From: Candidatus Aldehydirespirator catecholifindens
GTDB taxonomy: Bacteria; Actinomycetota; Acidimicrobiia; Acidimicrobiales; Aldehydirespiratoraceae
Length of the DNA stretch: 33,744 nucleotides
Direction of reading: 5' to 3'
NCBI GenBank assembly: GCA_028283245.1
Contig: JAPYNU010000037.1
Span: 1 to 33,744, forward strand
The translations under genes were made by a program, and so were the position numbers. How positions within the stretch are numbered: the stretch's first letter is position 1; the number at the start of each line of letters is the position of its first letter. This document shows positions 2,876 through 28,049 of this stretch, piece after piece. The notes under the pieces were generated by a model. It ran no database searches. It saw only the letters and a program-made list of their open reading frames with translations, and was not told the origin of the DNA.

Positions 2876-3157
2876 ATGGACAGACTTGCTAATCCCTACA
2901 GGCCAGGAGCGGGAACACAGCCCGCTGCCTTGATGGGACGCGACCATCTAATCGACGACTTTGGAGTGACCTTGCGGCGAGCGGTCGACGGTCGTCCAGG
3001 CAAGAACTGCATGCTGTTGGGTCTGCGCGGCACCGGCAAAACAGTGCTTCTGAACCGCTTCATGGAGATCGCCAGTCAGGAAGGTGTCCAGACCGCGTTC
3101 GTTGAAGCCTCTGACTCGGAGAGCTTCAGTGAAATCCTCATGTTGAGGGTGTGTTAA
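2876..3157 (+). pseudogene. N-terminal fragment of an AAA-type ATP-binding protein
   Basis: The 93-residue frame starts MDRLANPYRPGAGTQPAALM, followed by 'GRDHLIDDF' and a P-loop 'LLGLRGTGKTVLLNRF' at about 48-63. This is the start of the prokaryotic ORC/Cdc6-like AAA_16 ATPase family ('NPYxPGAGxxPxxLxGRD'), whose members run to about 380-420 residues. The frame runs into TAA at 3155-3157 just after strand 2, so the Walker B, sensor and C-terminal regions are absent. Its stop overlaps the stop of the convergent CooC-like gene in the palindrome TTAA, so the break lies exactly at a gene boundary. Probably a non-functional remnant left by a recombination event. Confidence 0.7.
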
Positions 3158-3906
3158 GTCTGTGCTGGTTGCAGTAGGTGGTTGGTTAGGGAATTGACGG
3201 CAGTCCACACTGAGGCGGCTCTAGTGCTTGGTAGAGGGACTCCCTCGCGGTCTGCTTGGGCGACTTCGTTGCTGGCGGGGATTACCACATCAAGAGGCAC
3301 ATCGTTTTGTGCACAGAGACGGGCCAGCAGGTCTTGCTGGTTTTCGCTGACTTTGTTGCCGACACCGATCCAAGCGGCTATGCCGAGTTCATCAGCTAGG
3401 ACGATCGTGCGACGGGCGGTGATCACCGCTTTGAGGCTGGGTTCCATCACAAGCACCAGCACATCGGCGTGGGCCAGAGTGCCACCAGAACGGCTCAGGT
3501 GTTCGATTCCGGCTTCCATGTCGATGATGGTGTCGTCGGTTTCGGTTTCGAGCGCTTCTCCTAGCAGGCTTCGCACCGTGGCGTGACCCCCGCAGGTACA
3601 TCCTGCGGCTGCTTCGTTGACACGCAGAGCCGACATCACGGTTACACCAGAAGGGGTTTGAGTCCCGTAGTCGGCCATTAGTTCAGCCACGGTGAGATCA
3701 CCGCGACTGCCCACAACAATCGACCGAGGCACCGTCGGCAAGGCCTCGGTTGCGCCATAGTCAAGCCCTAGCGACAGACCCAGGTTTGGGTTGGAGTCGG
3801 TGTCAACAGCCAGCACTCTTCGGCCTCGCTCGGTCAAAGCTCGAGCCAGCAGCGCGCTGATCGTCGTTTTGCCTACGCCGCCCTTGCCGACAACTCCGAT
3901 CTTCAT
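3154..3906 (-). CDS. cooC: CooC-type nickel chaperone ATPase with Cys-x-Cys motif
   Basis: This 250-residue P-loop ATPase begins MKIGVVGKGGVGKTTISALL with the deviant Walker A motif GKGGVGKTT of the MinD/ArsA/CooC class. It has 'LAVDTDSNPNLGLSLG' at about 32-47 (switch I) and 'DTIIDMEAGIEHLSR' in the Walker B region. Cys103 and Cys105 lie in 'AGCTCGGHAT'. In CooC of carbon-monoxide dehydrogenase systems the equivalent CxC pair binds Ni(II)/Zn(II) across the dimer, and ATP-driven dimerisation delivers nickel to the enzyme. No CO dehydrogenase gene is visible here, so the client enzyme is unknown. The next gene on the same strand upstream of it is unrelated; hypF lies beyond its start. It serves as the cysteine reference for the Sec-containing paralogue at 13813-14553. 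Confidence 0.8.
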   Translation of the reverse strand: MKIGVVGKGGVGKTTISALLARALTERGRRVLAVDTDSNPNLGLSLGLDYGATEALPTVPRSIVVGSRGDLTVAELMADYGTQTPSGVTVMSALRVNEAAAGCTCGGHATVRSLLGEALETETDDTIIDMEAGIEHLSRSGGTLAHADVLVLVMEPSLKAVITARRTIVLADELGIAAWIGVGNKVSENQQDLLARLCAQNDVPLDVVIPASNEVAQADREGVPLPSTRAASVWTAVNSLTNHLLQPAQT

Positions 3907-4054: not shown

Positions 4055-6394
4055 TCACTTTGCCATCATTGCTCGTCCCACAGCTGCTTGCCCCAGCGAA
4101 ATACCCCCGTCGTTGGGTGGAACTTGACGGTGGCTAAGCACCGTGAAGCCGCACTGTTGCAAGTCTGTGGCCAGCAGTTCCGACAGCAAACGATTCTGGA
4201 AGACCCCTCCCGACAATGCCGCAGCGCTGAGTCCCGTAGCTTCACGGGCTTGCTGCGCCGCAGCCACAGCAACATCGGCCACCCAACGATGAAACGAACC
4301 CGAAATCTCAGACGGGTGCCGACCGGCTAACAAATCGTCTGTCACGGCGATGATCAGCGGAGTCGGGTCAATCACCGCAGGAGAGCCCGCGCTGATCACT
4401 ACCGGATAACGCCGCTCGCATGACCCTGCAGCCTGCTCAAGACCGATGGCGGCCTGCCCTTCGTAGCTCACGGTCTGGCGTATTGCGCACATCGCTGCCA
4501 CCGCGTCGAACAGCCTGCCCAGCGATGTTGTCATCATCGCCTGGCCCGCGCGGCACTGAAGCAGAACCTGCTCAGCCTTGCTGTGATGCTCTGCCAACGA
4601 ATCAAGTTGCGGCAGGTCCGTTCCGAATGCTTCGTGAAGATGAGCCAGCGCCATACGCCACGGTTGACGGATCGCAGCAGCGCCGCCCGGCATCGGCACT
4701 GCACGCAGATGAGCGAAGCGCTCATAGCCGCCAGCATCACCAACCAAGACCTCCCCGCCCCAGAGGACACCGTCAGTGCCCCAACCGATGCCATCAAAGA
4801 TCAGACCGATGACTTCACCCACAAAACCCGAGTCGGCCAAACAGGAAGCCAGATGCGCGTGATGATGCTGCACACCGAGTCGGGGGGCAAGATCAACGCT
4901 GCAAGCGAACTTGGTGGACAGATACTCGGGGTGCTGATCATGAACGATCAGTTCGGGCATAGCTCGGGTCAACTCAAGTAGATCGGCTACAGCAACCTCG
5001 AAAGCGTCCAAAGCGGACGGGTGCTCCAAGTCACCGAGATGCACCGACAGATGAGCCCGATTGCCCAGAGCCAAACACACCGTGTTTTTGAGTTCAGCGC
5101 CAACCGCAAGCACCGGCGCACCGCTGTTGTTGAGCTGCAGCGTTGTCGGGGCGTAACCGCGAGCGCGGCGCAGCAACTGGAAATCTCCGTTGACGACATG
5201 AGCCACGGAATCATCGGCGCGACGCTCAATAACCCGATCGTGGCTGAGGATCGCGTCCACCAGCGGCGCAAGTTCAGCCGCCGCCACAGTGTCGTCAATG
5301 ACTATTGGTTCGTCGCTGAGATTGCCGCTTGTGCAAACCAGTGCCACTCCGACAGCATCAGTTAGCAAAGCATGAAGCGGGCTCGCTGGCAGCATCACCC
5401 CCAACAGCTTCGTGTCGGGTGCCACCTGCGCCGCTACCTGCGTCGCTACCAACGCTGACTCTCGCCGAGGTGCCAGCACGATGGGGGCTTCGGGTCCACA
5501 AAGCGCCCGCTGCGCCAGATCGTCAAGCCACACGAGTTCGTTTGCTGCAGCGAGCGAAGCGACCAGCAGCGCGAAGGGTTTCTCGTCGCGCTGCTTGCGC
5601 TGTCTCAGTCGAGTCACAGCGGCTGCGTCATCGGCGCGACATGTCAGCTGATAGCCGCCCACACCCTTGACGGCGACGATGCGACCCTTTTTCAGCAGCG
5701 CTGCCGCAGCCTCCAGCGGGTCGCTGGCTTTTAGCGCTGCCGTAGCTTCTAGCGGGTCGCCAGCCTCCAGTGTTGCCGCAGCTTCTAGCGTGCCGCCGTG
5801 ACAAGCTTCTCCTGTGCTAAAGCGAAGCGACAGCTGCGGGCCGCAGTCAGCGCAGCAGACAGCTTGGGCGTGATGACGCCGATCCGTCGGGGCGAGATAC
5901 TCAGCTTCGCATAAGTCGCAAAGCGCAAAGCGAGCCATTGAAGTGCGTTCTCGGTCATAAGGCAGGCGCTGCACCACCGTGTAGCGGGGTCCACAGTCGA
6001 CGCAACATGTGAAGGGATAGCCGTAGCGGCGGTTACCGGGGTCGCGGATCTCAGCAAGGCACGCCGAGCAGGCAGATGCGTCCGCAGGAACGCCAGCAAC
6101 CACCGTGTCGCTGCCGCCTGAACTGCCAGCAATCAGAAACTTGCGGTCGTGGTCAACGCAGGGCATCACCGTCGAATGCAGCGACTCCACTCGCGCCAGC
6201 GGAGGTGCCTCGGCGGCGACCCGGTCAACGAATACGGCAAGATCATCTTGAGTGCCCTGAATTTCGCACCAGACACCGTTGTCATCATTGCCAGCAGCAC
6301 CGGTCAGTGACAGTTGTAGCGCTAGGCGATGCAGATGCGGCCGGAAACCCACGCCCTGCACAGTGCCGGTGATGCGCAGACGGAGTCGCTGCAC
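4055..6394 (-). CDS. hypF: Carbamoyltransferase HypF, [NiFe] hydrogenase maturation
   Basis: This 779-residue protein has the full HypF architecture: an acylphosphatase-like domain (about 1-90, 'GTVQGVGFRPHLHRLA'), a zinc-finger region (about 105-190, 'ACSACLAEIRDPGNRRYGYP' then CCVDCG and CDLC), a YrdC-like domain (about 230-400, 'RIVAVKGVGGYQLTCRA') and a Kae1/carbamoyltransferase domain (about 420-779, 'HHHAHLASCLADSG', 'LIFDGIGWG', 'ALSGGVFQNRLL'). HypF makes the carbamoyl adenylate used by HypE to build the CN ligands of the NiFe site, so the organism probably has a [NiFe] hydrogenase elsewhere. No other hyp gene is in the window. A 12-residue Ala/Glu-rich repeat is inserted between zinc finger and YrdC domains. 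Confidence 0.93.
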   Translation of the reverse strand: MQRLRLRITGTVQGVGFRPHLHRLALQLSLTGAAGNDDNGVWCEIQGTQDDLAVFVDRVAAEAPPLARVESLHSTVMPCVDHDRKFLIAGSSGGSDTVVAGVPADASACSACLAEIRDPGNRRYGYPFTCCVDCGPRYTVVQRLPYDRERTSMARFALCDLCEAEYLAPTDRRHHAQAVCCADCGPQLSLRFSTGEACHGGTLEAAATLEAGDPLEATAALKASDPLEAAAALLKKGRIVAVKGVGGYQLTCRADDAAAVTRLRQRKQRDEKPFALLVASLAAANELVWLDDLAQRALCGPEAPIVLAPRRESALVATQVAAQVAPDTKLLGVMLPASPLHALLTDAVGVALVCTSGNLSDEPIVIDDTVAAAELAPLVDAILSHDRVIERRADDSVAHVVNGDFQLLRRARGYAPTTLQLNNSGAPVLAVGAELKNTVCLALGNRAHLSVHLGDLEHPSALDAFEVAVADLLELTRAMPELIVHDQHPEYLSTKFACSVDLAPRLGVQHHHAHLASCLADSGFVGEVIGLIFDGIGWGTDGVLWGGEVLVGDAGGYERFAHLRAVPMPGGAAAIRQPWRMALAHLHEAFGTDLPQLDSLAEHHSKAEQVLLQCRAGQAMMTTSLGRLFDAVAAMCAIRQTVSYEGQAAIGLEQAAGSCERRYPVVISAGSPAVIDPTPLIIAVTDDLLAGRHPSEISGSFHRWVADVAVAAAQQAREATGLSAAALSGGVFQNRLLSELLATDLQQCGFTVLSHRQVPPNDGGISLGQAAVGRAMMAK
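5697..5790 (-). repeat. 36-bp tandem repeat inside hypF
   Basis: About 2.6 copies of a 36-bp unit (5697-5732, 5733-5768, 5769-5790) encode the 12-residue unit LEAxAxLxAxDP in the linker between the zinc-finger and YrdC-like domains of HypF. It keeps the frame and is probably a harmless linker expansion. Confidence 0.8.
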
Positions 6395-6566: not shown

Positions 6567-8624
6567 ATGCATTTACGTCGAATCCCTTATCTCGCCCTAG
6601 TCCTAGCGCTGCTCGCTTTTTTGCTGACACCTTTCGCTCACGCCCAAGACGAAGAGGTCGTGGTTCGTGTGGGCTTGCACGCTGCCGAAAAGAACCTTAA
6701 CCCGTTCATCGTTCCCCAGGCGCTGCCATTGACGCACGATTTCACGATGCTGGTTTACGACACGCTTTTCTGGTCACAGAGCCGCATTGATCCCGAGCCT
6801 TGGCTGGCGACCGGCGCTGAAGCATCCGATGACTTCCGTGTTTGGACTGTGTCGCTGCGCGATGACGTTGTCTGGCATGACGGCGTTGCTTTCACCGCCG
6901 AAGACGTGGCTTTCACTTTCCAGTACTTCGCTGATGACGCTGGCCCGGGACGTTACGGCCATCACATTTATGACCATCCAGTGTTTGAATCAGCGACGGT
7001 CATTGACGACACCACCGTTGAGCTTCGCTTTGAGGATCCAGTGTCAACCTTCATGATGTTGCCCGGCGGTGACGCTCCGATACTGCCCAAACACATCTGG
7101 GAAGGCGTTGAAGATCCGCGTGCTGACGCCACTTCGCTGCCGGTCGGAACAGGCCCCTACGTGATGGTTGACTATGAGCCCGGCACCTCATATCGCCTGG
7201 AAGCCAATCCCGACTATTTCTTGGGGCCACCCCTAGTCGACACGCTGATCATGCCGGTGGTTAGAGACTCTCAGGCTGCTTTCGCAGGGCTCCAAACAGG
7301 TGCACTCGATTTCGTCACTCGCAACCTGCCAGCACCGCTGGTGCCTCGAATGCAAGAAAACAACGAAATTGAGGTGATCACAGGCAGCCGCATGCAGTCG
7401 CTGTATCTGATGTTCAACACCCGCAAGCCGATCCTGTCAAACCCGACAGTGCGTAAAGCCATGAGCATGGCGCTGGACCTTGAAGCCATTGTCAACATTG
7501 TTGAGGGAGGCTTAGGACGTCCAGGAAACGACACTTGGACGCATCCCGATTCGCCTTGGGCGCACCCTTCTGGTGGTCACACCTTTGACGTGGCCGCCGC
7601 CAACGCAATGCTTGACGAAGCTGGCTACGCGATGGACGGCGATACGCGTCGCAGCCCTGAAGGCGCACGGCTGGAGTTCACGCTGCTCGTCAACGCAGCC
7701 GCTCCGCCACAGATCCGATCTGGAGAACTGGTCGCTGAGCAGCTTTCTGCCATAGGTGTTGATGTCACAGTCGAACCGCTGGACGCGCCTGCCATCACCG
7801 CAGCCCGCCGCCCGGGGCCTGACGGACCGCCAAAAGTGGAAATGTTCATCGCCGTGTTTGAGTCGCACGCCCACGCTGATCCTGATCATCTATTCTTCTT
7901 CTTTCACACCCCAGGCCGAGGCGTAGGCGGGATTTTCAGCGGCTATTCCAACCCCGAATTTGATGCTGTGCTCGATTCTGCCTTAGGGGTGTCGGTGCCC
8001 GAGAAGCAAGAACTGATCAGCCAAGCGCAAGAAATTTTTGCTGCTGAAGCACCGGCAGTGGTGCTGTATTACCCCGACGGACGTTGGGGTTATCGCCCTA
8101 GCGCGTATGACGGGTGGATCAGCGACCCAGGCCACGGAGTGTTCACCAAACGTTCGCTGCTGGCACCGTATGCGGCGGTTGCAGCTTCACTCGAAGCTTC
8201 CGACTCCGAAGGCGAAGGTGAAAGCGAAGGCGGCGTTTCTGGTGATTCTGCTTCTGGTGAGGCCGACACTGGCGACACCGACGGATCTGCTGGTGACGCG
8301 GCGGCTGATTCCACAGACTCCGAGGAGTCCACGGCGGCAGCCAACAGCTCAGATGACGCTTCTGAGAATGCTGACGCGCCACAAGCAGCCGATGAGATGG
8401 CGGCTGATTCAGATGAGCCCGCTGAAGCTTCTGCTGACACTTCAACAGCCGCTGCCACTGACAGTGGCACATCAGCGCAAGACGCGTCAGATGACGGCGA
8501 CTCAGATGACGATGGCGGCGCTGCGACAGTGGTGACTGCGGTGGTAGTGCTGGCTGTCATAGCTGCGATAGCGGCGTTCGCCGTGGTGCGACGCCGTGGG
8601 CAGCAGGGCACCGTCGAAGACTGA
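6567..8624 (+). CDS. ABC transporter substrate-binding protein, Opp/Dpp/Nik family, C-terminally membrane anchored
   Basis: This 685-residue protein starts with a signal peptide (MHLRRIPYLALVLALLAF..., cleavage probably after 'FAHA'). Its SBP_bac_5 domain spans about 30-545 ('WTVSLRDDVVWHDGVAFTAE', 'LPVGTGPYVMVDYEPG', 'NPTVRKAMSMALDLEAIV'). Family members bind peptides, nickel chelates or other small solutes. The domain is followed by an Asp/Ser/Glu/Ala-rich linker of about 100 residues and a C-terminal transmembrane helix ending in Arg residues ('VVTAVVVLAVIAAIAAFAVV' then RRRG). So the protein is held by a C-terminal helix instead of a lipid, and the linker spans the wall. It is the first gene of a likely operon with the two permeases, ATPases and selenoproteins; from this context nickel is a plausible substrate, but no nickel-specific residue can be named. 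Confidence 0.88.
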   Translation: MHLRRIPYLALVLALLAFLLTPFAHAQDEEVVVRVGLHAAEKNLNPFIVPQALPLTHDFTMLVYDTLFWSQSRIDPEPWLATGAEASDDFRVWTVSLRDDVVWHDGVAFTAEDVAFTFQYFADDAGPGRYGHHIYDHPVFESATVIDDTTVELRFEDPVSTFMMLPGGDAPILPKHIWEGVEDPRADATSLPVGTGPYVMVDYEPGTSYRLEANPDYFLGPPLVDTLIMPVVRDSQAAFAGLQTGALDFVTRNLPAPLVPRMQENNEIEVITGSRMQSLYLMFNTRKPILSNPTVRKAMSMALDLEAIVNIVEGGLGRPGNDTWTHPDSPWAHPSGGHTFDVAAANAMLDEAGYAMDGDTRRSPEGARLEFTLLVNAAAPPQIRSGELVAEQLSAIGVDVTVEPLDAPAITAARRPGPDGPPKVEMFIAVFESHAHADPDHLFFFFHTPGRGVGGIFSGYSNPEFDAVLDSALGVSVPEKQELISQAQEIFAAEAPAVVLYYPDGRWGYRPSAYDGWISDPGHGVFTKRSLLAPYAAVAASLEASDSEGEGESEGGVSGDSASGEADTGDTDGSAGDAAADSTDSEESTAAANSSDDASENADAPQAADEMAADSDEPAEASADTSTAAATDSGTSAQDASDDGDSDDDGGAATVVTAVVVLAVIAAIAAFAVVRRRGQQGTVED

Positions 8625-9627
8625 GCCCGGCACCGCCTCAAGGCGGCGACGCTCTGGTGTCGCGCGTCTGCTGAGGCTGGGTTCGCAGTATGCGGCGGTG
8701 ATCCTTGCCGCGTTGGTGGTCAACTTTGCGCTGCCGCGGCTGGCACCCGGTGAGCCAGCTGACTATCTCGTCCCGCCGGATTCAGGCTCAGTCGAAGATG
8801 CCGTGCGTCAGTCAATGCTGGAACGTTTCGACCTTGACGGCTCAGCCTGGCAGCAGTTCGGTAGTTATCTAGGCAACCTGTCACAAGGCGATTTTGGCAT
8901 CTCGGTTCGTGACGGCAGGGCCGTGTCGGAGGTGGTCGGTGAGCGCCTTTGGTGGTCGCTGCTTTTGGTGGGCACGGCGGTGGCAGCGTCAACGATTCTG
9001 GGGGTGATGCTGGGTTTCGCTGCTGGCTGGCGACGCGGGTCACGGCGCGATGTGTCGCTTCTGGCTGGGGTTTTGGCAGTGGATGCGCTGCCAGCATTTT
9101 TTGTTGGGCTGATGCTGCTGCTGGTGTTCTCGGTGCAGCTTGAGTGGCTACCCGTCTACGGGGCCGTGTCACCCGAGGCGCTCGGTGGCTGGGACTGGAT
9201 CGTTGACGTTGCGAAACGTTTGGTGATGCCTGCGGTGACTCTCACATTCGTTGGCCTGGGATCGGTGTTCGTCGTGGCTCGCTCGGCGATGATTTCCGAA
9301 CTCGGCGAGGACTACGTGTTCATGGCCCGCGCCAAAGGGCTGTCGGATCGTGCCGTCAGGCGTCACGCTGCTCGCAACGCCATGATCCCGGTATCTACCG
9401 TGGCGCTGCTGGGGTTCTCCACGTTGGTGGGAGCAGCGACCGTGGTTGAAAGCGTTTTCTCGTATCCAGGTCTTGGTTCGCTGGCTTTTGATGCTGTTAG
9501 AGCCCGCGACTATCCAGTGCTTCAAGCGGTGTTTGTACTGCTGTCGCTGACTGCGGTGGCCGCCAACCTGCTAGCAGATCTGCTTTATCCGGTGATTGAT
9601 CCGCGGGTGCGCCGAGCGGGTTCGTAA
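8596..9627 (+). CDS. ABC transporter permease, DppB/NikB type
   Basis: This 343-residue inner membrane permease has about six hydrophobic segments and the BPD_transp_1 coupling region 'SELGEDYVFMARAKGLSDRA' followed by 'HAARNAMIPVSTVALLG', typical of DppB/OppB/NikB. The N-terminal segment ends 'NFALPRLAPGEPADYL', the usual start of the first periplasmic loop. The GTG start at 8596 lies inside the 3' end of the substrate-binding protein gene (29 bp overlap), implying translational coupling; a later start is possible because the first 20 residues are polar. Its TAA overlaps the ATG of the next gene (TAATG). It pairs with the permease half of the following fusion protein. Confidence 0.88.
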   Translation: MGSRAPSKTEPGTASRRRRSGVARLLRLGSQYAAVILAALVVNFALPRLAPGEPADYLVPPDSGSVEDAVRQSMLERFDLDGSAWQQFGSYLGNLSQGDFGISVRDGRAVSEVVGERLWWSLLLVGTAVAASTILGVMLGFAAGWRRGSRRDVSLLAGVLAVDALPAFFVGLMLLLVFSVQLEWLPVYGAVSPEALGGWDWIVDVAKRLVMPAVTLTFVGLGSVFVVARSAMISELGEDYVFMARAKGLSDRAVRRHAARNAMIPVSTVALLGFSTLVGAATVVESVFSYPGLGSLAFDAVRARDYPVLQAVFVLLSLTAVAANLLADLLYPVIDPRVRRAGS

Positions 9628-12500
9628 TGCGATCGAATACGAAGTATCGCACTCGGCTGCGTCCGGCCACGCTGGTTCTGGCGTTGCTCGGCGCGGTGAT
9701 GCTGATGCTGGTGATTGGTGCGGCTGTATTTGCTGATCTGCTGGCATCACATCCACCCGACCGAACAAGTGGGTTGCCATACCAATCCCCTTCAGCGCAG
9801 CACTGGCTGGGCACCGACGATCTAGGCCGCGACCTTTGGGCGCAACTAGTGTTCGGTGCCCGAGTGTCGCTGCTGGTGGGATTAATCGCAGCTGTGGCCG
9901 CGACACTGCTTGGCACTGCTGCTGCTTTGCTCGCTGGCTGGCACCGCGGCTGGGTTGATGCGGCGATCATGCGGCTGGTTGATCTGACACTGTCGCTGCC
10001 GTTTTTGGTGCTGGTTCTGGTGTTGGCCGCCTATTTTGGGCGTGGTCTCGAGGTGCTGATCGTGTTGATTGCGGGAGTGCTGTGGGCACGCCCGGCGCGG
10101 CTGTTACGCAGTCAGGTGCTGAAAATCTCGGAGTTCGGCCACACCGAAGCCGCACACGCCATGGGGTCGGGCCCGTTGCGGATCATGACGATCCATATCG
10201 GCTGGCGCTTGGTGCCTCTAATCGTGTCGCAGCTGGTGAGAGCAGCCGCAGTAGCGGTGATCGTGCAGTCAGGTGTGGCGTTTCTGGGTTTGGGCGATCC
10301 CGGTCGGGTTAGCTGGGGTTCGACGCTCTACTTCGCCAACAACGGCAGCGCCATCCTCACCGATGCTTGGCTTTGGTGGATTGTCCCTCCAGGCGCAGCA
10401 TTGACGATTCTGATCGTCGGGCTGGCTTTTGTGGGGTTTGCGTTTGAGGAGTTGGCCGATCCGCAGCTGAGCAGCCACGGCTGGAGGCCCCCTAGCCACC
10501 GTCGCCTCAGCGAAACGATGCCAGAGTCGTGTGACCCCGAGGTGCGTCTTGATGTGCGCAACTTGTCGGTGAGCTTTGATGAGGCAACGGTGGTACGCAA
10601 TGTCGACTTGCGGATCAAACGAGGCAGAACCCTGGGGCTGGTGGGCGAGTCGGGGTCGGGAAAGTCCACGCTGGGACTAGCAGTTCCAGGACTGGTGGCT
10701 CATCCGGGCCGGATCGAAGCAGCCGCAGTGATGTTCGAAGACCTTGACTTGCGTCGCCTGGGTAGGCACGGCTTGGAGAAGATCCGTGGCCGTGATGTAG
10801 CGATCGTGCCGCAGGCGGCAATGAGCGTGCTCAACCCCACAATGAACGTTGTTGCTCAAGTAGTTGAGTCGGCGAAGCTGAGAGCTGAAACTTCAGCCAC
10901 TTCAGGCGCCACTGAGCGAGCGAGTGAACTGCTGACGCGAGTCGGTCTCCCGACCGAGCGCCATTGTGCTTTTCCTCATCAGCTCAGCGGCGGGCAGCGT
11001 CAACGGGTGGTGATCGCCATGGCTGTCGCCAATCAACCAAAGCTGGTGATCGCTGATGAGCCGACCACAGGACTTGATGTCATCAATCAGCAGGCCATTC
11101 TCGATCTGCTGGACGAACTCCGCCGCCGGTTGGGTTTTGATCTTTGGCTCATCTCACATGACCTACCGCTGGTTGCGTCTCGGGCTGATGACCTCGTGGT
11201 GATGTACGGCGGTCGTGTAGTGGAAGCCGGTAGCGCTGTTCAAGTAGCGCAAAACCCGCAACATCCCTATACGTCGCTGCTGCTTAAAGCGTTCCCCTTG
11301 CTGGGTGATGCTGCTGTGAGCCTGCGTCCAGTGCCCGGTGAAGTCCCTGACCCTCGCAACCTGCCGACCGGTTGCGCTTTCGCGCCGCGCTGCCCACACC
11401 GCCGCGATGACTGCCTACAAACTGTGCCTGCGCCACGACTGATCGGCGAAGCAACTGTGGCTTGTCATCACGCGCCACTGCCCCAAAGCGTCCCGCTGCC
11501 TGCGTTCACAGTTTCCGCCGACGTGTCTTCGTCTTCTTCAAGCTCAGATTCCGACCCTATGTACAGTCAAAGTGCCCCCAACGCGAACCGGTTCCTCAGC
11601 AAGACCGACCCGCTGCCACAGCCTGGCTTGTTGGCGGCAAGCGGCGACTCATCGCCTTATGCGGCTCTGAGTTTGACTGATGTAGGGGTGATGTATTCAA
11701 GACAAGCGCTGCGGCGCCGCAACGCAGAAGCAGTCCATGCCCTACATAAAGAGTCACTTGAGGTCGCTGTCGGTGAGTCCGTCGCCATCATCGGCCGTAG
11801 CGCGGCGGGCAAATCCACTATTGCACGACTGGCGGTAGGGCTCGTTCAGCCAACTAGCGGCTCACTGACGCTGTTGGGGCATGACTTGGCGGAGTTGTCA
11901 AGGCGGCAGCATCGTCAACTGCGACGAAGTGTGCAGATGGTGTTTCAGGATCCGTATGAGTCGCTGCATCCCAACATGACGGTGGTTTCGCTGGTCGGCG
12001 AGCCGCTGGCCATCGCCGGAATGCCGCGTCGTGAGCGCACACAGCGGGTGCTTGCAGCGTTGCAGCGCTTGGGGTTGACCCCAGCCGAGAGCTTTCTTTA
12101 CAGGCACCCCAAGACTCTCAGCGGCGGGCAACGCCAGCGTGTGGCTCTAGCCCGAACTCTGGTAGCCGAACCGGAACTCATCGTCGCTGACGAACCGGCA
12201 TCAATGCTTGACGCGTCACTCAGAGCGACTGTGGCCACGCATCTGCTTGAGGTTCGTGAAGCGCTGGGTGCAACGCTGGTATTCATCACTCACGACATTT
12301 CTCTGGCGCGCCTAGTGACTGAGCGGATTGTAGTGCTATGTGAGGGCCGCGTAGTTGAAGACGGCCCCTCACAGCAGGTGATCGAATCGCCGAAACATCG
12401 AGAGACTCAAGCATTAATCCAAGCCGCGAGCCGCAGCCACCATCTGGTGCCAGCCCCAGATAAAGCCTCAAGTTGCTACGGTCGCTCAACGCCACGCTGA
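9627..12500 (+). CDS. Fused ABC transporter: DppC-type permease + DppD-type ATPase + DppF-type ATPase
   Basis: A single 957-residue frame holds three proteins that are normally separate. Residues about 1-285 are a DppC/NikC-type permease ('HWLGTDDLGRDLWAQLVFGA', 'EAAHAMGSGPLRIMTIHIG'). Residues about 305-620 are an OppD-type ATPase with Walker A GESGSGKST near 339, signature LSGGQRQR near 453, Walker B 'LVIADEPTTGLD', and the Cys-bearing tail 'CAFAPRCPHRRDDC' typical of this family. After a Ser-rich linker, residues about 675-930 form an OppF-type ATPase with Walker A GRSAAGKST near 723, LSGGQRQR near 831 and 'LIVADEPASMLD'. The second Walker A lacks the usual acidic residue (RSAAGKS versus ESGSGKS). 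The complete transporter is therefore encoded by three genes. The DsrE-like gene follows 42 bp later. Confidence 0.9.
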   Translation: MRSNTKYRTRLRPATLVLALLGAVMLMLVIGAAVFADLLASHPPDRTSGLPYQSPSAQHWLGTDDLGRDLWAQLVFGARVSLLVGLIAAVAATLLGTAAALLAGWHRGWVDAAIMRLVDLTLSLPFLVLVLVLAAYFGRGLEVLIVLIAGVLWARPARLLRSQVLKISEFGHTEAAHAMGSGPLRIMTIHIGWRLVPLIVSQLVRAAAVAVIVQSGVAFLGLGDPGRVSWGSTLYFANNGSAILTDAWLWWIVPPGAALTILIVGLAFVGFAFEELADPQLSSHGWRPPSHRRLSETMPESCDPEVRLDVRNLSVSFDEATVVRNVDLRIKRGRTLGLVGESGSGKSTLGLAVPGLVAHPGRIEAAAVMFEDLDLRRLGRHGLEKIRGRDVAIVPQAAMSVLNPTMNVVAQVVESAKLRAETSATSGATERASELLTRVGLPTERHCAFPHQLSGGQRQRVVIAMAVANQPKLVIADEPTTGLDVINQQAILDLLDELRRRLGFDLWLISHDLPLVASRADDLVVMYGGRVVEAGSAVQVAQNPQHPYTSLLLKAFPLLGDAAVSLRPVPGEVPDPRNLPTGCAFAPRCPHRRDDCLQTVPAPRLIGEATVACHHAPLPQSVPLPAFTVSADVSSSSSSSDSDPMYSQSAPNANRFLSKTDPLPQPGLLAASGDSSPYAALSLTDVGVMYSRQALRRRNAEAVHALHKESLEVAVGESVAIIGRSAAGKSTIARLAVGLVQPTSGSLTLLGHDLAELSRRQHRQLRRSVQMVFQDPYESLHPNMTVVSLVGEPLAIAGMPRRERTQRVLAALQRLGLTPAESFLYRHPKTLSGGQRQRVALARTLVAEPELIVADEPASMLDASLRATVATHLLEVREALGATLVFITHDISLARLVTERIVVLCEGRVVEDGPSQQVIESPKHRETQALIQAASRSHHLVPAPDKASSCYGRSTPR

Positions 12501-12542: not shown

Positions 12543-12920
12543 TTGACACAGCGCCGCAAATTGATCTTCTTCACCACAGCGGATCCCCGCAATGACTGCG
12601 GTGCGCTGTTTCGTGCCTATCACTTCGCAATGGCAGCAGCTACGGCCGGACTCGAAGCAGAAGTACGCCTCGCAGGCGATGCCGTAGCGGTCGCCGATCT
12701 TGAAGTAATCCCCGATACTGAAATGGGCCGAGATGTGCGCCAGAAGGTTGCCTCGGGCCGCGAAGCATCCTTCGCTGTGTCGTTTTGACCGTATTCAAGC
12801 GATGCCCGTGGGGTATCAGCGCAGGCGGCTGCCAGTGTCGGTGCCGACTTTCGTTACCTCGGCGAAATCCTTACCGAGGTAGCTGACGGCACCTCGGAAC
12901 TAGTCTTCGTAGGTGGCTAA
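12543..12920 (+). CDS. DsrE-like selenoprotein (Sec82 encoded by in-frame TGA)
   Basis: TTG at 12543 follows a perfect AGGAGG (12532-12537) at 5 nt. The frame runs 81 codons ('KLIFFTTADPRNDCGALFRA', 'GLEAEVRLAGDAV'), meets TGA at 12786-12788, then continues open for 43 codons to TAA at 12918-12920. The downstream part reads PYSSDARGVSAQAAASVGAD and ends 'ADGTSELVFVGG'. Together they make a full-length DsrE/DsrF-like fold of 125 residues, and the TGA stands where DsrE-like proteins have their conserved active Cys ('C-P-Y/x-...-A-R-G'). A stable hairpin (12801-12817) follows. A conventional call ending at 12788 would lack the active residue and the last strands. DsrE-like proteins carry sulfur or selenium as persulfide or selenide; the role here is inferred. 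A pseudogene is the main alternative. Confidence 0.85.
12801..12817 (+). promoter_or_regulatory. Candidate bacterial SECIS hairpin for the DsrE-like gene
   Basis: GATGCCC (12801-12807) and GGGTATC (12811-12817) form a 7-bp stem with one G-U pair around the loop GTG (12808-12810). The loop begins 19 nt after the TGA at 12786-12788. Bacterial SECIS elements lie inside the coding sequence just after UGA with a G (often GU) in the apical loop about 16-37 nt away, so spacing and loop fit. Confidence 0.7.
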
Positions 12921-13029: not shown

Positions 13030-13800
13030 ATGATTCGGATTGCTTTTGTGGGCAAGGGAGGTGCAGGCAAGTCCACCATTGCGGGCACGTTCGCTCGGCT
13101 GCTAGCACGCCGTGGCGAGCCGGTGCTGGCATTGGACTCAGATCCGATGCCGGGTATGCCGTATTCACTTGGCGTAGCGGTGGATGATCATCCCATACCC
13201 GAAGATGTGGTGGTCGCTGGCAGCGAAGGCCAACCCAGATGGGTGTTGCGACCCGGTCTTGATGCCTCTGAGATGATCGCCCGTTATGCGGCGCAGTGCC
13301 CTGACAGTGTCCGTTACTTGCAGTTCGGCAATCTTTGGGGTCCGGTCGTGCGGTTGCAGCAAGCCCAGTTCGCCTGGAGTCAAGTGGTCGCCGAGCTAGA
13401 TGCAGAGCAATGGCATCTGGTCGGTGATCTGCCGGGAGGCACCCGTCAAGCCATGTTCGGCTGGGCTAAATACGCCGACACGGTGTGTCTCGTGGTGGAG
13501 CCGACCGTCAAATCGCTGCACACGGCGACCCGTCTGGTGAAGCTGACGCAAGCCGAATGGGGCCCTAGCCGTCTTGTGGTGATAGTCAACAAAGCCCAAG
13601 ACCACGCCGATGTGGACCGAGTCAGCAAACGGCTGGCCGTCGAGCCCGCCGCAGTTGTGCCTCATGATCCTGTGGTGGCGCAAGCTGATCGTCAAGGCGC
13701 AGCCCCGCTAGACGCATCGCCCGCCGGTGCTTTCGCACAATCAGTGGAGGCGCTGGTTGAACAAGTTACGGCGCTTTACTCTCGCCATTCTCACCCCTGA
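13030..13800 (+). CDS. CooC/MinD-like P-loop ATPase lacking the CxC motif
   Basis: ATG at 13030 (a TTG at 13012 is in the same frame) opens a 256-residue protein starting MIRIAFVGKGGAGKSTIAGT with the deviant Walker A GKGGAGKST. It continues 'VLALDSDPMPGMPYSLGVAV' and 'WHLVGDLPGGTRQAMFGWAK' in the Walker B region. Its general plan matches the CooC proteins at 3154-3906 and 13813-14553, but the stretch where those have CxC or UxU ('GNLWGPVVRLQQAQFAW') has no Cys or Sec, so it cannot bind metal the same way. It may partner the Sec-containing CooC, for example as a heterodimer (inference). Its TGA stop is 12 nt before the next ATG and lies within the next gene's Shine-Dalgarno region. Confidence 0.82.
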   Translation: MIRIAFVGKGGAGKSTIAGTFARLLARRGEPVLALDSDPMPGMPYSLGVAVDDHPIPEDVVVAGSEGQPRWVLRPGLDASEMIARYAAQCPDSVRYLQFGNLWGPVVRLQQAQFAWSQVVAELDAEQWHLVGDLPGGTRQAMFGWAKYADTVCLVVEPTVKSLHTATRLVKLTQAEWGPSRLVVIVNKAQDHADVDRVSKRLAVEPAAVVPHDPVVAQADRQGAAPLDASPAGAFAQSVEALVEQVTALYSRHSHP

Positions 13801-13812
13801 GGAGGTGGTGCC

Positions 13813-14553
13813 ATGAAAATCGCGGTTGTCGGCAAAGGCGGCGCTGGCAAGACCACAACCAGCGCTGTGCTGGCACGCTCTCTCGGGCAGCGTGGTTTGC
13901 CTGTTGTAGCTCTTGATTGCGACACCAACCCCAACCTCGGCTTGTCGTTAGGCGTGGGTGACAACGAAACCGAACACCTGCTGACTTTGCGTGAGATGCT
14001 CGACACCGGCGAAGCCGAGCACGCCCCCAGCTTCGGCGAGATTCTTGAGCGCTACGGCACCGACGCACCAGACAACGTTCGTCTGGCGGTGATTACCCGC
14101 ATCGAGAACCCTGAGCCTGGTTGACCTTGATGCGGGTTGTCAGCCGAGCAGTTGCTCGGCTTCGCCGAGGCCGATGCCGCCACTATCGTCGCAGACCTTG
14201 AGGCTGGCATCGGCACTTTGACGCGGCTGGCACCCGCAGCAGTGGATGCCACAGTGGTGGTGGTAGAGCCAACCCTGCGATCCATTGATGTCGGCCGCCG
14301 AGCGGTGTCGGTGGCTGAAGAGCAGAGCCAAGGCCAAGTGGTGATTGTCGCCAACAAGGTTGCCGATGAGCAGGATCGGATCCGCATCATCGAAGCTTTT
14401 GGTGAAAGGCCGCTAGTGGTGGTTCCAGCCGACACGGCAGTTGATGCCGCTGACAGGCTTGGCATTTCACCGCTTGACCATGAGCCTTCCGCTCCGGCTG
14501 TGGCGGCGATCAAGGGACTAATCGAACTGCTAGGGCTCGACACAGCGCTCTAG
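13813..14553 (+). CDS. cooC: CooC-type ATPase selenoprotein with Sec-Pro-Sec in place of Cys-x-Cys
   Basis: ATG at 13813 is preceded by GAGGAGGT (13799-13806). The protein starts MKIAVVGKGGAGKTTTSAVL and 'ALDCDTNPNLGLSLG', closely matching the CooC at 3154-3906. TGA occurs in frame at 14122-14124 (codon 104) and 14128-14130 (codon 106). The frame then continues without a break to TAG at 14551-14553, giving 246 residues against 250 in the paralogue. Around the codons the reading is EPG-U-P-U-CGLSAEQLLG; the paralogue has AAG-C-T-C-GGHATVRSLLG at residues 101-115. Both TGAs thus replace the two metal-binding Cys of CooC, and the Walker B region ('TIVADLEAGIGTL') and the C-terminal part are conserved after them. 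A hairpin follows at 14142-14161. A gene caller would split it at 14124/14137. Likely role: nickel binding and delivery with selenolate ligands (inference). Confidence 0.88.
14142..14161 (+). promoter_or_regulatory. Candidate bacterial SECIS hairpin for the Sec-x-Sec CooC
   Basis: AGCCGAGC (14142-14149) pairs perfectly with GCTCGGCT (14154-14161), an 8-bp stem with loop AGTT (14150-14153). The loop G at 14151 is 20 nt after the second TGA and 26 nt after the first, so one hairpin could serve both codons. The GU in the apical loop matches known bacterial SECIS features. Confidence 0.75.
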
Positions 14554-26955: not shown

Positions 26956-27051
26956 TGGCGGAGGTGGACGGGAATCGAACCCGCCGGACGGGGATCGCCC
27001 GTCCCACCCGCTTTGAAGGCGGGGGAGCCCACCAGGCGCTCAGACACCTCC
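26956..27051 (-). tRNA. selC: tRNA-Sec (anticodon TCA)
   Basis: The minus strand gives a 96-nt tRNA including an encoded CCA. It starts GGAGGTG at 27051 and ends CACCTCC-G-CCA at 26956. The anticodon stem-loop is CCCGC-CTTCAAA-GCGGG with anticodon TCA at 27014-27016. The variable arm is very long and G/C-rich (GGGACGGGCGATCCCCGTCC), and the T-arm has GGTTCGATTCC. An anticodon that reads UGA, a 96-nt length and a long extra arm together identify selenocysteine tRNA. It provides the means to read the in-frame TGAs at 12786, 14122 and 14128. selA, selB and selD are not in the window. Confidence 0.95.
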
Positions 27052-27227: not shown

Positions 27228-28049
27228 GTGCGTGTCACCGAACTCGCCGGTGTCGCCGAAGCTTTGGAGCTGACTGGACGGTCGCTGACAGCGCTGGTTG
27301 GCGGAGGCGGCAAAACCACCCTGCTATTCGCACTGGGACGGACACTGTCGCCGCGCACTCTGCTTACCACCACAACACGTATGGGGCGTGATCGCACCGG
27401 CGGCTTCGCTTGTCTAATCGCGCCCGATGACAACAGCCTCGCCACAGCTTGCAACACCCACGAAACGGTTCTGGCATGGCGCAGCACCGATGAGCGCAAG
27501 GCGATCGGCTTCGCTCCTGAAGTCGTTGACCGCTGGTTCGCCTCAGGTATAGCTGATCGGATAGTTGTTGAGGCTGACGGCGCACGGCGACGGCCCTTCA
27601 CTGCGCCTGCTGCTTGGGAACCGCCGATCCCATCGTTGTCCACCGACGTGCTGGCTTGTATAGGTGCCGAGGCTTTGGGATACGTGATAGCCGATCGGGT
27701 GCATCGACCCCTGCGGGTGGCTGCGGCTGCTGGATGCTCGCCTTATCAGCGGTTGACACCTCAACGCGCTGCGGTTGCGCTGACCAGCGATTTGGGTCTG
27801 CGCAAGAATGTTCCCTCTACGGCGCGCTTCACGGTGGTGGTGTCTGGAGCCGATCCTCAAGATCCGCAGGTGCAGGAGTTGGTCGCTGAGCTTGATCGGC
27901 TCAGCACAGCTTCACTGGTAGTGATAAAAAACTGCAAAGACCTCGCCGAAACCACCGAAGCGAACAAGATCGCCGACACCGCTGACAACACCAGCAGCGT
28001 CGGCACTGTCGACGCTGCTGCTAGCGAGTTCGGAAGCGTGCGCCGATGA
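27228..28049 (+). CDS. yqeC: YqeC-type selenium-linked accessory ATP/GTPase
   Basis: This 273-residue protein carries the P-loop 'LTALVGGGGKTTLLFALGRT' near 20-38, 'LLTTTTRMGRDRTGGF', 'RIVVEADGARRRPFTAPAAW' (Walker B-like) and 'EPPIPSLSTDVLACIGAEAL'. These match the YqeC family, named for its linkage to selenium-dependent molybdenum hydroxylases (with selD and mocA-like genes), where it is thought to help make a selenium-containing cofactor. Its location just after tRNA-Sec supports selenium metabolism. No hydroxylase is in view. Start GTG 27228; an ATGA overlap couples it to the oxidoreductase. Confidence 0.83.
   Translation: MRVTELAGVAEALELTGRSLTALVGGGGKTTLLFALGRTLSPRTLLTTTTRMGRDRTGGFACLIAPDDNSLATACNTHETVLAWRSTDERKAIGFAPEVVDRWFASGIADRIVVEADGARRRPFTAPAAWEPPIPSLSTDVLACIGAEALGYVIADRVHRPLRVAAAAGCSPYQRLTPQRAAVALTSDLGLRKNVPSTARFTVVVSGADPQDPQVQELVAELDRLSTASLVVIKNCKDLAETTEANKIADTADNTSSVGTVDAAASEFGSVRR

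Follow-up and report, generated by a model that had tools for sequence, protein, structure and literature searches.

A CooC-type ATPase of Actinomycetota with in-frame UGA codons at both metal-ligand positions: very likely a selenoprotein and probably a nickel carrier for [NiFe] hydrogenase

The window analyzed here, a stretch of 33,744 nucleotides that constitutes an entire contig of the 2.59 Mb genome of Candidatus Aldehydirespirator catecholifindens (104 contigs; this genome is G000 and the contig is C36 in our numbering), encodes a CooC-type ATPase in which both codons at the metal-ligand positions are TGA. Both very likely encode selenocysteine (Sec), decoded by means of a single hairpin downstream. 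Judging from the sequence and from genome comparison, the protein likely delivers nickel, bound to selenolates, to a [NiFe] hydrogenase of the actinobacterial type. The gene, denoted UxU CooC hereinafter, spans 246 residues in one frame that ends with TAG and contains TGA as codons 104 and 106; because the second TGA is directly followed by a cysteine codon, the motif reads U-P-U-C-G. The first-pass annotation had described this frame, had noted that its TGA codons fall on Cys103 and Cys105 of a cysteine paralogue encoded in the window, and had suggested that conventional annotation would hide the gene. All this is borne out by the window sequence: the intact minus-strand paralogue has Cys103-Thr-Cys105 in the same place, and the standard reading splits the gene into two open reading frames, 13813-14124 and 14137-14553. 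In a codon-usage scan of both strands, the TGA codons with coding signal on either side were those at codons 104 and 106, the one at 12786, which lies inside a DsrE-like gene, and the one at 13798, which is the ordinary stop of the gene immediately upstream. The features of the window that are relevant to this analysis are collected in Table 1.

Table 1. Features of the window, with the evidence on which each assignment is based
Feature	Coordinates	Strand	Evidence
CooC paralogue, Cys103-Thr-Cys105	3154..3906	-	intact frame; family matches
HypF, hydrogenase maturation	4055..6394	-	TIGR00143, 714 bits
ABC importer substrate-binding protein, NikA/peptide class	6567..8624	+	below NikA cut-off
ABC importer permease, NikB-like class	8698..9627	+	below NikB cut-off
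ABC permease fused to two ATPase domains, NikD/NikE-like	9627..12500	+	NikD 339.5 bits, NikE 364.5 bits, both above cut-off
DsrE-like protein, putative second selenoprotein; in-frame TGA at 12786-12788	12543..12920	+	PF02635, 26.1 bits, cut-off 22.7
Putative hairpin after the DsrE TGA, GATGCCC-GTG-GGGTATC	12801..12817	+	conserved in 7 aligned copies, judged by eye
CooC-like P-loop ATPase without CxC, putative partner subunit	13030..13800	+	family matches, context counts
CooC-type ATPase, U104-P-U106-C107 (UxU CooC)	13813..14553	+	frame, orthologue alignments, PDB match
TGA codon 104, very likely Sec	14122..14124	+	CxU and CxC loci have a Cys codon there
TGA codon 106, very likely Sec	14128..14130	+	relatives have TGA, TAG (where tRNA-Sec is CUA) or a Cys codon
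Hairpin GCCGAGC-AGTT-GCTCGGC, putative SECIS common to both TGA codons	14143..14160	+	fold, conservation, covariation
tRNA-Sec, anticodon UCA	26956..27051	-	tRNA search of the window

The assignment to the CooC type, also made in the first-pass annotation, stands. The top sequence match in the PDB is CooC itself (3kje, E = 2.3e-14; runner-up, 2.4e-07), and in the alignment codons 104 and 106 fall on Cys112 and Cys114, the residues that in CooC1 of Carboxydothermus hydrogenoformans (3kje, 3kjg, 3kjh, 3kji) bind zinc at the dimer interface, at a site for which nickel competes (PMC6006190). The two CxC ligand positions are present but are occupied by TGA codons in the window gene, cysteines being found at both in 19 of the 84 loci aligned. 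The deviant Walker A motif (GKGGxGKT) is located at residues 7-15 as GKGGAGKTT, with the invariant positions kept in all 27 sequences aligned. The predicted model has a mean pLDDT of 86.9 (62-72 around the motif); in a Foldseek search with this model, many MinD-type folds were retrieved and, among the 50 matches listed, 3kje ranked eighth by E-value and first by TM-score (0.78). Membership in the HypB family was rejected because the HypB model TIGR00073 is not among the families matched by UxU CooC; the genome of the window itself yields no HypB match at E <= 1e-10. Compared with CooC1, one or both cysteines are replaced by Sec in the UxU family, an additional cysteine follows the motif, the gene has a tandem neighbor without CxC, and the genome encodes a hydrogenase rather than a CO dehydrogenase.

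Among 298 genomes of the order, 30 contain a match to UxU CooC at E <= 1e-20. The orthologous set was defined as 28 places with E <= 1e-66, the next-best place having an E-value of 3.6e-51; two of the 30 genomes (G136 and G037) have distant matches only and were left out. These orthologues comprise 21 U-x-U, 5 C-x-U, 1 C-x-C and 1 frameshifted form. A frame broken elsewhere in related genomes, which the first-pass annotation had named as the mark of a true pseudogene, is seen only in the frameshifted copy, the other 27 being free of additional breaks. A scan of one genome per species (84,980 species), in which the named relatives nearest to the genome of the window are MAGs of Acidimicrobiaceae and Acidimicrobiia, yielded 181 relatives. 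The top 80 of these, from across Actinomycetota, were kept; many of their contigs coincide with those of the 298-genome search, which contributed four extra loci to an alignment of 84 distinct loci. This alignment includes 45 UxU, 16 CxU by TGA, 3 CxU by TAG, 19 CxC and 1 frameshifted locus, so the homologues with C, U or mixed residues at the two sites that the first-pass annotation had proposed to look for do exist (45 UxU, 19 CxU and 19 CxC). With 45 independent loci carrying both TGA codons, sequencing error is untenable. The frameshifted copy (L032/L173, genome G231) keeps the hairpin core described below and contains an out-of-frame TGC-CCG-TGA-TGC run; it is either a pseudogene or a sequencing error, and the adjoining gene without CxC is also fragmented.

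In a wider search of the phylum, 63 of 396 genomes have a match at E <= 1e-30, at places with two, one or no TGA (TGA codons only were counted). The cysteine forms of the CooC family are plainly common as well: a large protein set contains 1287 full-length relatives and, among the best 120 of these, 95 are Cys-x-Cys and 25 could not be parsed; Sec forms would be absent from such a set because annotation cuts them. The 298-genome search also revealed 24 other places with one TGA (L059-L082), paralogues of the types U-T-C, U-T-G/W and U-G-G in which the TGA is always at the first CxC position. Within this order, the Sec trait extends across the CooC family, with the double TGA as its extreme form. 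A tree from which the columns under study were removed, built by a quick method and with many weak branches, implies at least five Sec/Cys changes at position 106 and at least six at position 104.

The strongest single piece of evidence for Sec at position 106 comes from cultured bacteria, in which the identity of the stop codon agrees with the anticodon of tRNA-Sec in all five genomes that have a stop there. Codon 106 is TAG in Blastococcus saxobsidens DSM 44509, Geodermatophilus chilensis B12 and Modestobacter sp. DSM 44400, and in all three the tRNA-Sec anticodon is CUA (ARAGORN labels these genes Pyl from the anticodon; the Rfam tRNA-Sec score is 65-67 bits); in Pseudonocardia nigra and P. 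kunmingensis, codon 106 is TGA and the anticodon is UCA. The extra match to the tRNA-Sec model in each UAG genome (48-50 bits, just above the cut-off) is a tRNA-Ser in all three cases. Amycolatopsis marina and Haloechinothrix halophila combine tRNA-Sec (UCA) with a Cys-x-Cys CooC. The CUA tRNA-Sec of the Geodermatophilaceae has been described along with the selenoproteins FDH, UGSC and AhpC (PMC5330540), which share both the bacterial family and the tRNA with the TAG form of CooC. Two loci from MAGs named Geodermatophilaceae (L151 and L154) have TGA at codon 106, unlike the TAG of the three isolates of this family, so a switch from UGA to UAG may have occurred within it.

SelA and SelB are encoded in most genomes with the UxU family. 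The first-pass annotation had named a lack of selA, selB and selD as a refutation; in the genome of the window, SelA and SelB are present, as is tRNA-Sec, and contig 61 carries SelB and SelA at a distance of about 1.5 kb from each other. SelA was detected in 27 of the 28 genomes with the UxU family (no match in G187), compared to 179 of the 298 genomes overall, and SelB scores above its cut-off in 24 of the 28, the other four being 86-93% complete or less. Two matches to the SelB model below the cut-off, both of the size of EF-Tu, contain in-frame TGA codons (two in G115:C52:89855-91195 and one in G029:C61:8550-9698). A gene of selenium cofactor biosynthesis, yqeC (27228-28049; TIGR03172, 134.9 bits), is located in the window on the strand opposite to tRNA-Sec, at a distance of 177 bases. 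Taken with the cysteines, Sec codons and mixtures found at the exact sites, these observations support the first-pass view that both TGA codons encode selenocysteine, and we consider such a reading very likely. What counts against it is the lack of a SelA match in G187, the four genomes without SelB above the cut-off, and the retention of the hairpin in one cysteine form, to which we now turn.

The putative SECIS element, a stem with a four-base loop, starts 12 nt past the second TGA. Its core, GAGCAGTTGCTC, located 15 nt past the second TGA, is found in 63 of the 64 Sec loci (the exception, L131, differs by one base) but in 1 of the 19 Cys loci. The latter is L150:2320-3039, a Cys-x-Cys CooC with the full core from a Nocardioidaceae MAG, which may reflect either a recent loss of Sec or the use of a sense codon for Sec. 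Among the Sec loci, Leu114 is encoded by TTG in 64 of 64 and Leu115 by CTC in 63 of 64, and none of the 57 columns that are conserved yet open to synonymous change (median 0.61) is more constrained in codon choice than these two; downstream of the TGA codons, such freezing of synonymous sites is seen in the Sec loci only. The flanking pairs of the stem co-vary, with compensatory changes: the pair 111.3-116.1 is C-G in 39, U-A in 13 and U-G in 12 of the 64 Sec loci, and 111.1-116.3 is paired in 55 of the 64. A tree-based test of the association between hairpin and Sec yielded four supported pairs with a median p of 0.125, too few for significance. A single hairpin seems to serve both UGA codons.

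The genes around UxU CooC, selected by codon usage, include, in a row on the plus strand, an ABC importer of the Nik/peptide class, the DsrE-like gene with its TGA, a CooC-like gene without CxC, and UxU CooC itself; HypF and the cysteine CooC are encoded on the opposite strand. The fused permease-ATPase gene also matches a dipeptide ATPase model, and the importer fits the peptide models as well as the nickel models. The CooC-like gene without CxC immediately precedes UxU CooC in 27 of the 28 orthologue contexts and at 75 of 80 loci; it is represented by fragments in G231, and the exception is G041, in which the neighbor pair belongs to a paralogue elsewhere and not to the orthologue.

HypF is present in the window, in which no hydrogenase was found; another contig of the same genome (C33) carries the small and large hydrogenase subunits, a protease, HypC, a SIS-domain protein, HypD, HypE and a fourth CooC, and in the genome G223 the whole set of genes is on one contig. 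The closest relative of the large subunit is HofG (5aa5; 513 bits, the next match scoring 166), a type that we take to be the actinobacterial, high-affinity group 1h [NiFe] hydrogenase. Its C-terminus is DPCMPC and so contains Cys, not Sec; a Sec-containing hydrogenase was accordingly rejected for this genome. The [NiFe] hydrogenase family (PF00374) was detected in 27 of the 28 genomes with the UxU family (all except G239) versus 45 of the 298 overall. Within the stretches fetched around the gene, Hyp or hydrogenase genes are found in 10 of the 28 genomes and at 41 of 80 loci. At the other 39 loci there is none in the stretch fetched, which speaks against delivery of nickel to the hydrogenase.

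HypB with HypA has the same presumed task, the insertion of nickel into [NiFe] hydrogenase. HypB scores above its cut-off in 17 of the 298 genomes and in 6 of the 28 with the UxU family, HypA does so in the same six, and the two were not found above the cut-off in the other 22. Weaker HypB matches in these 22 genomes number seven, all of which are UreG above its own cut-off; UreG, present in 7 of the 22 genomes, could also handle nickel, another point against assigning this task to UxU CooC. In G004 and G046, HypA, HypB and a second hydrogenase are encoded on one contig, separate from the UxU gene, and of the seven cultured genomes, five have neither HypA nor HypB above the cut-off, Modestobacter and P. 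nigra having both. Among the hydrogenase-containing genomes without the UxU family, however, 9 of 18 also lack HypB above the cut-off, so the absence of HypB alone does not point to UxU CooC. An exchange of HypA and HypB for UxU CooC is, therefore, suggested by these counts but not proven.

A possible route for the metal can be outlined. Nickel would enter through the Nik-like importer, and the neighbor without CxC would pair with the UxU protein, allowing U104, U106 and perhaps C107 to coordinate Ni(II) close to where the two subunits meet. Binding of ATP would open the site and release nickel to the large subunit of the hydrogenase, presumably after HypC, HypD, HypE and HypF have completed the iron half of the center; where HypA and HypB are missing, in 22 of the 28 genomes, the same route would take their place. 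The selenolates might provide for tight metal binding and for easy re-reduction after contact with oxygen. The fuller version of this scheme, in which the hydrogenase matures without HypA and HypB by means of a CooC heterodimer with one Sec-x-Sec-Cys nickel subunit and one subunit devoid of the site, the DsrE selenoprotein helping, is a conceivable scenario that we put forward tentatively, as somewhat short of probable. If it is correct, hydrogen oxidation in these bacteria would depend on selenium even though the hydrogenase itself contains none.

Several other interpretations were weighed against nickel delivery. The protein could be a CooC-family selenoprotein in which the selenolates serve redox chemistry, bind zinc, copper or some metal other than nickel, or handle selenium. 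Most characterized selenoproteins are redox proteins, according to the 2026 catalogue (PMC13188914), 7 of the 28 genomes encode a putative DsrE selenoprotein of the redox type alongside UxU CooC in the gene row, and the presence of up to nine CooC-like matches per genome in the 298-genome search leaves room for several clients; the near-universal co-occurrence with [NiFe] hydrogenase, the Hyp and other CooC genes that often adjoin the gene, and the coincidence of the ligands with those of the CooC Ni/Zn site make such a role unlikely. Less likely still is that only one of the TGA codons is read efficiently, so that translation mostly ends at codon 104 and the UxU arrangement is regulatory or yields a truncated product: there is one hairpin for two UGA codons, at a distance that fits the second better, and the CxU forms have the second stop only, but both TGA codons are retained by the 45 UxU loci in many families and bacterial proteins with multiple Sec are listed in the catalogue (PMC13188914). 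That UxU CooC is a classical CooC loading Ni-CO dehydrogenase, as the family resemblance and the name "CO dehydrogenase maturation factor" borne by many cysteine homologues in the source annotation would have it, is highly improbable and, within the limits of genome completeness, contradicted, given that the CooS/prismane family (PF03063) was found in none of the 33 genomes carrying the gene compared to 5 of the 14 control genomes. Finally, the pseudogene or two-gene interpretation, in which the TGA codons are real stops as in the conventional two-ORF reading, can be discounted almost entirely because both stops persist in an otherwise open frame at 45 of the 84 loci, the stop becomes TAG where tRNA-Sec reads UAG, and the downstream synonymous sites are frozen in the Sec loci only, so that all the matches of codon, tRNA and hairpin would have to be coincidental.

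UxU CooC thus appears to be a CooC by sequence and a selenoprotein by genomic tests, with a probable hydrogenase client unlike the classical one. The first-pass annotation knew of no described CooC selenoprotein, and we found none in a literature search that covered few subscription journals, or among the 119 prokaryotic selenoprotein families and subfamilies of Table 1 of the 2026 catalogue (PMC13188914). Sec in an NTPase of the metal-chaperone group is not without precedent because the catalogue lists a CobW-related selenoprotein (NF041053); that protein, however, belongs to a different NTPase family and has a single Sec in a motif listed as UxxC (PMC13188914). The U-x-U-C arrangement also resembles the CxCC metal motif of the G3E GTPases (COG0523; PMC9164220). 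Ordinary annotation breaks each Sec form into two pieces. As a family, these proteins would extend the known selenoproteins by one whose selenium most likely serves to bind a metal and pass it on, and the assembly of a nickel enzyme would be linked to the availability of selenium. They also bear on the production of [NiFe] hydrogenase in these genomes, in which HypA and HypB are missing. Direct testing is possible because the gene is present in cultured Blastococcus, Geodermatophilus and Modestobacter (UAG) and in Pseudonocardia (UGA).

The DsrE-like gene with one in-frame stop is found in 7 of the 28 contexts and at 13 of the 80 loci. A DsrE-like selenoprotein of the same family (PF02635) is included in the catalogue with the motif UxxC (PMC13188914); by contrast, the residues here are U-P-Y/F/G-S, without a cysteine three positions on. 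In the seven copies aligned, the TGA and the bases that follow it are conserved.
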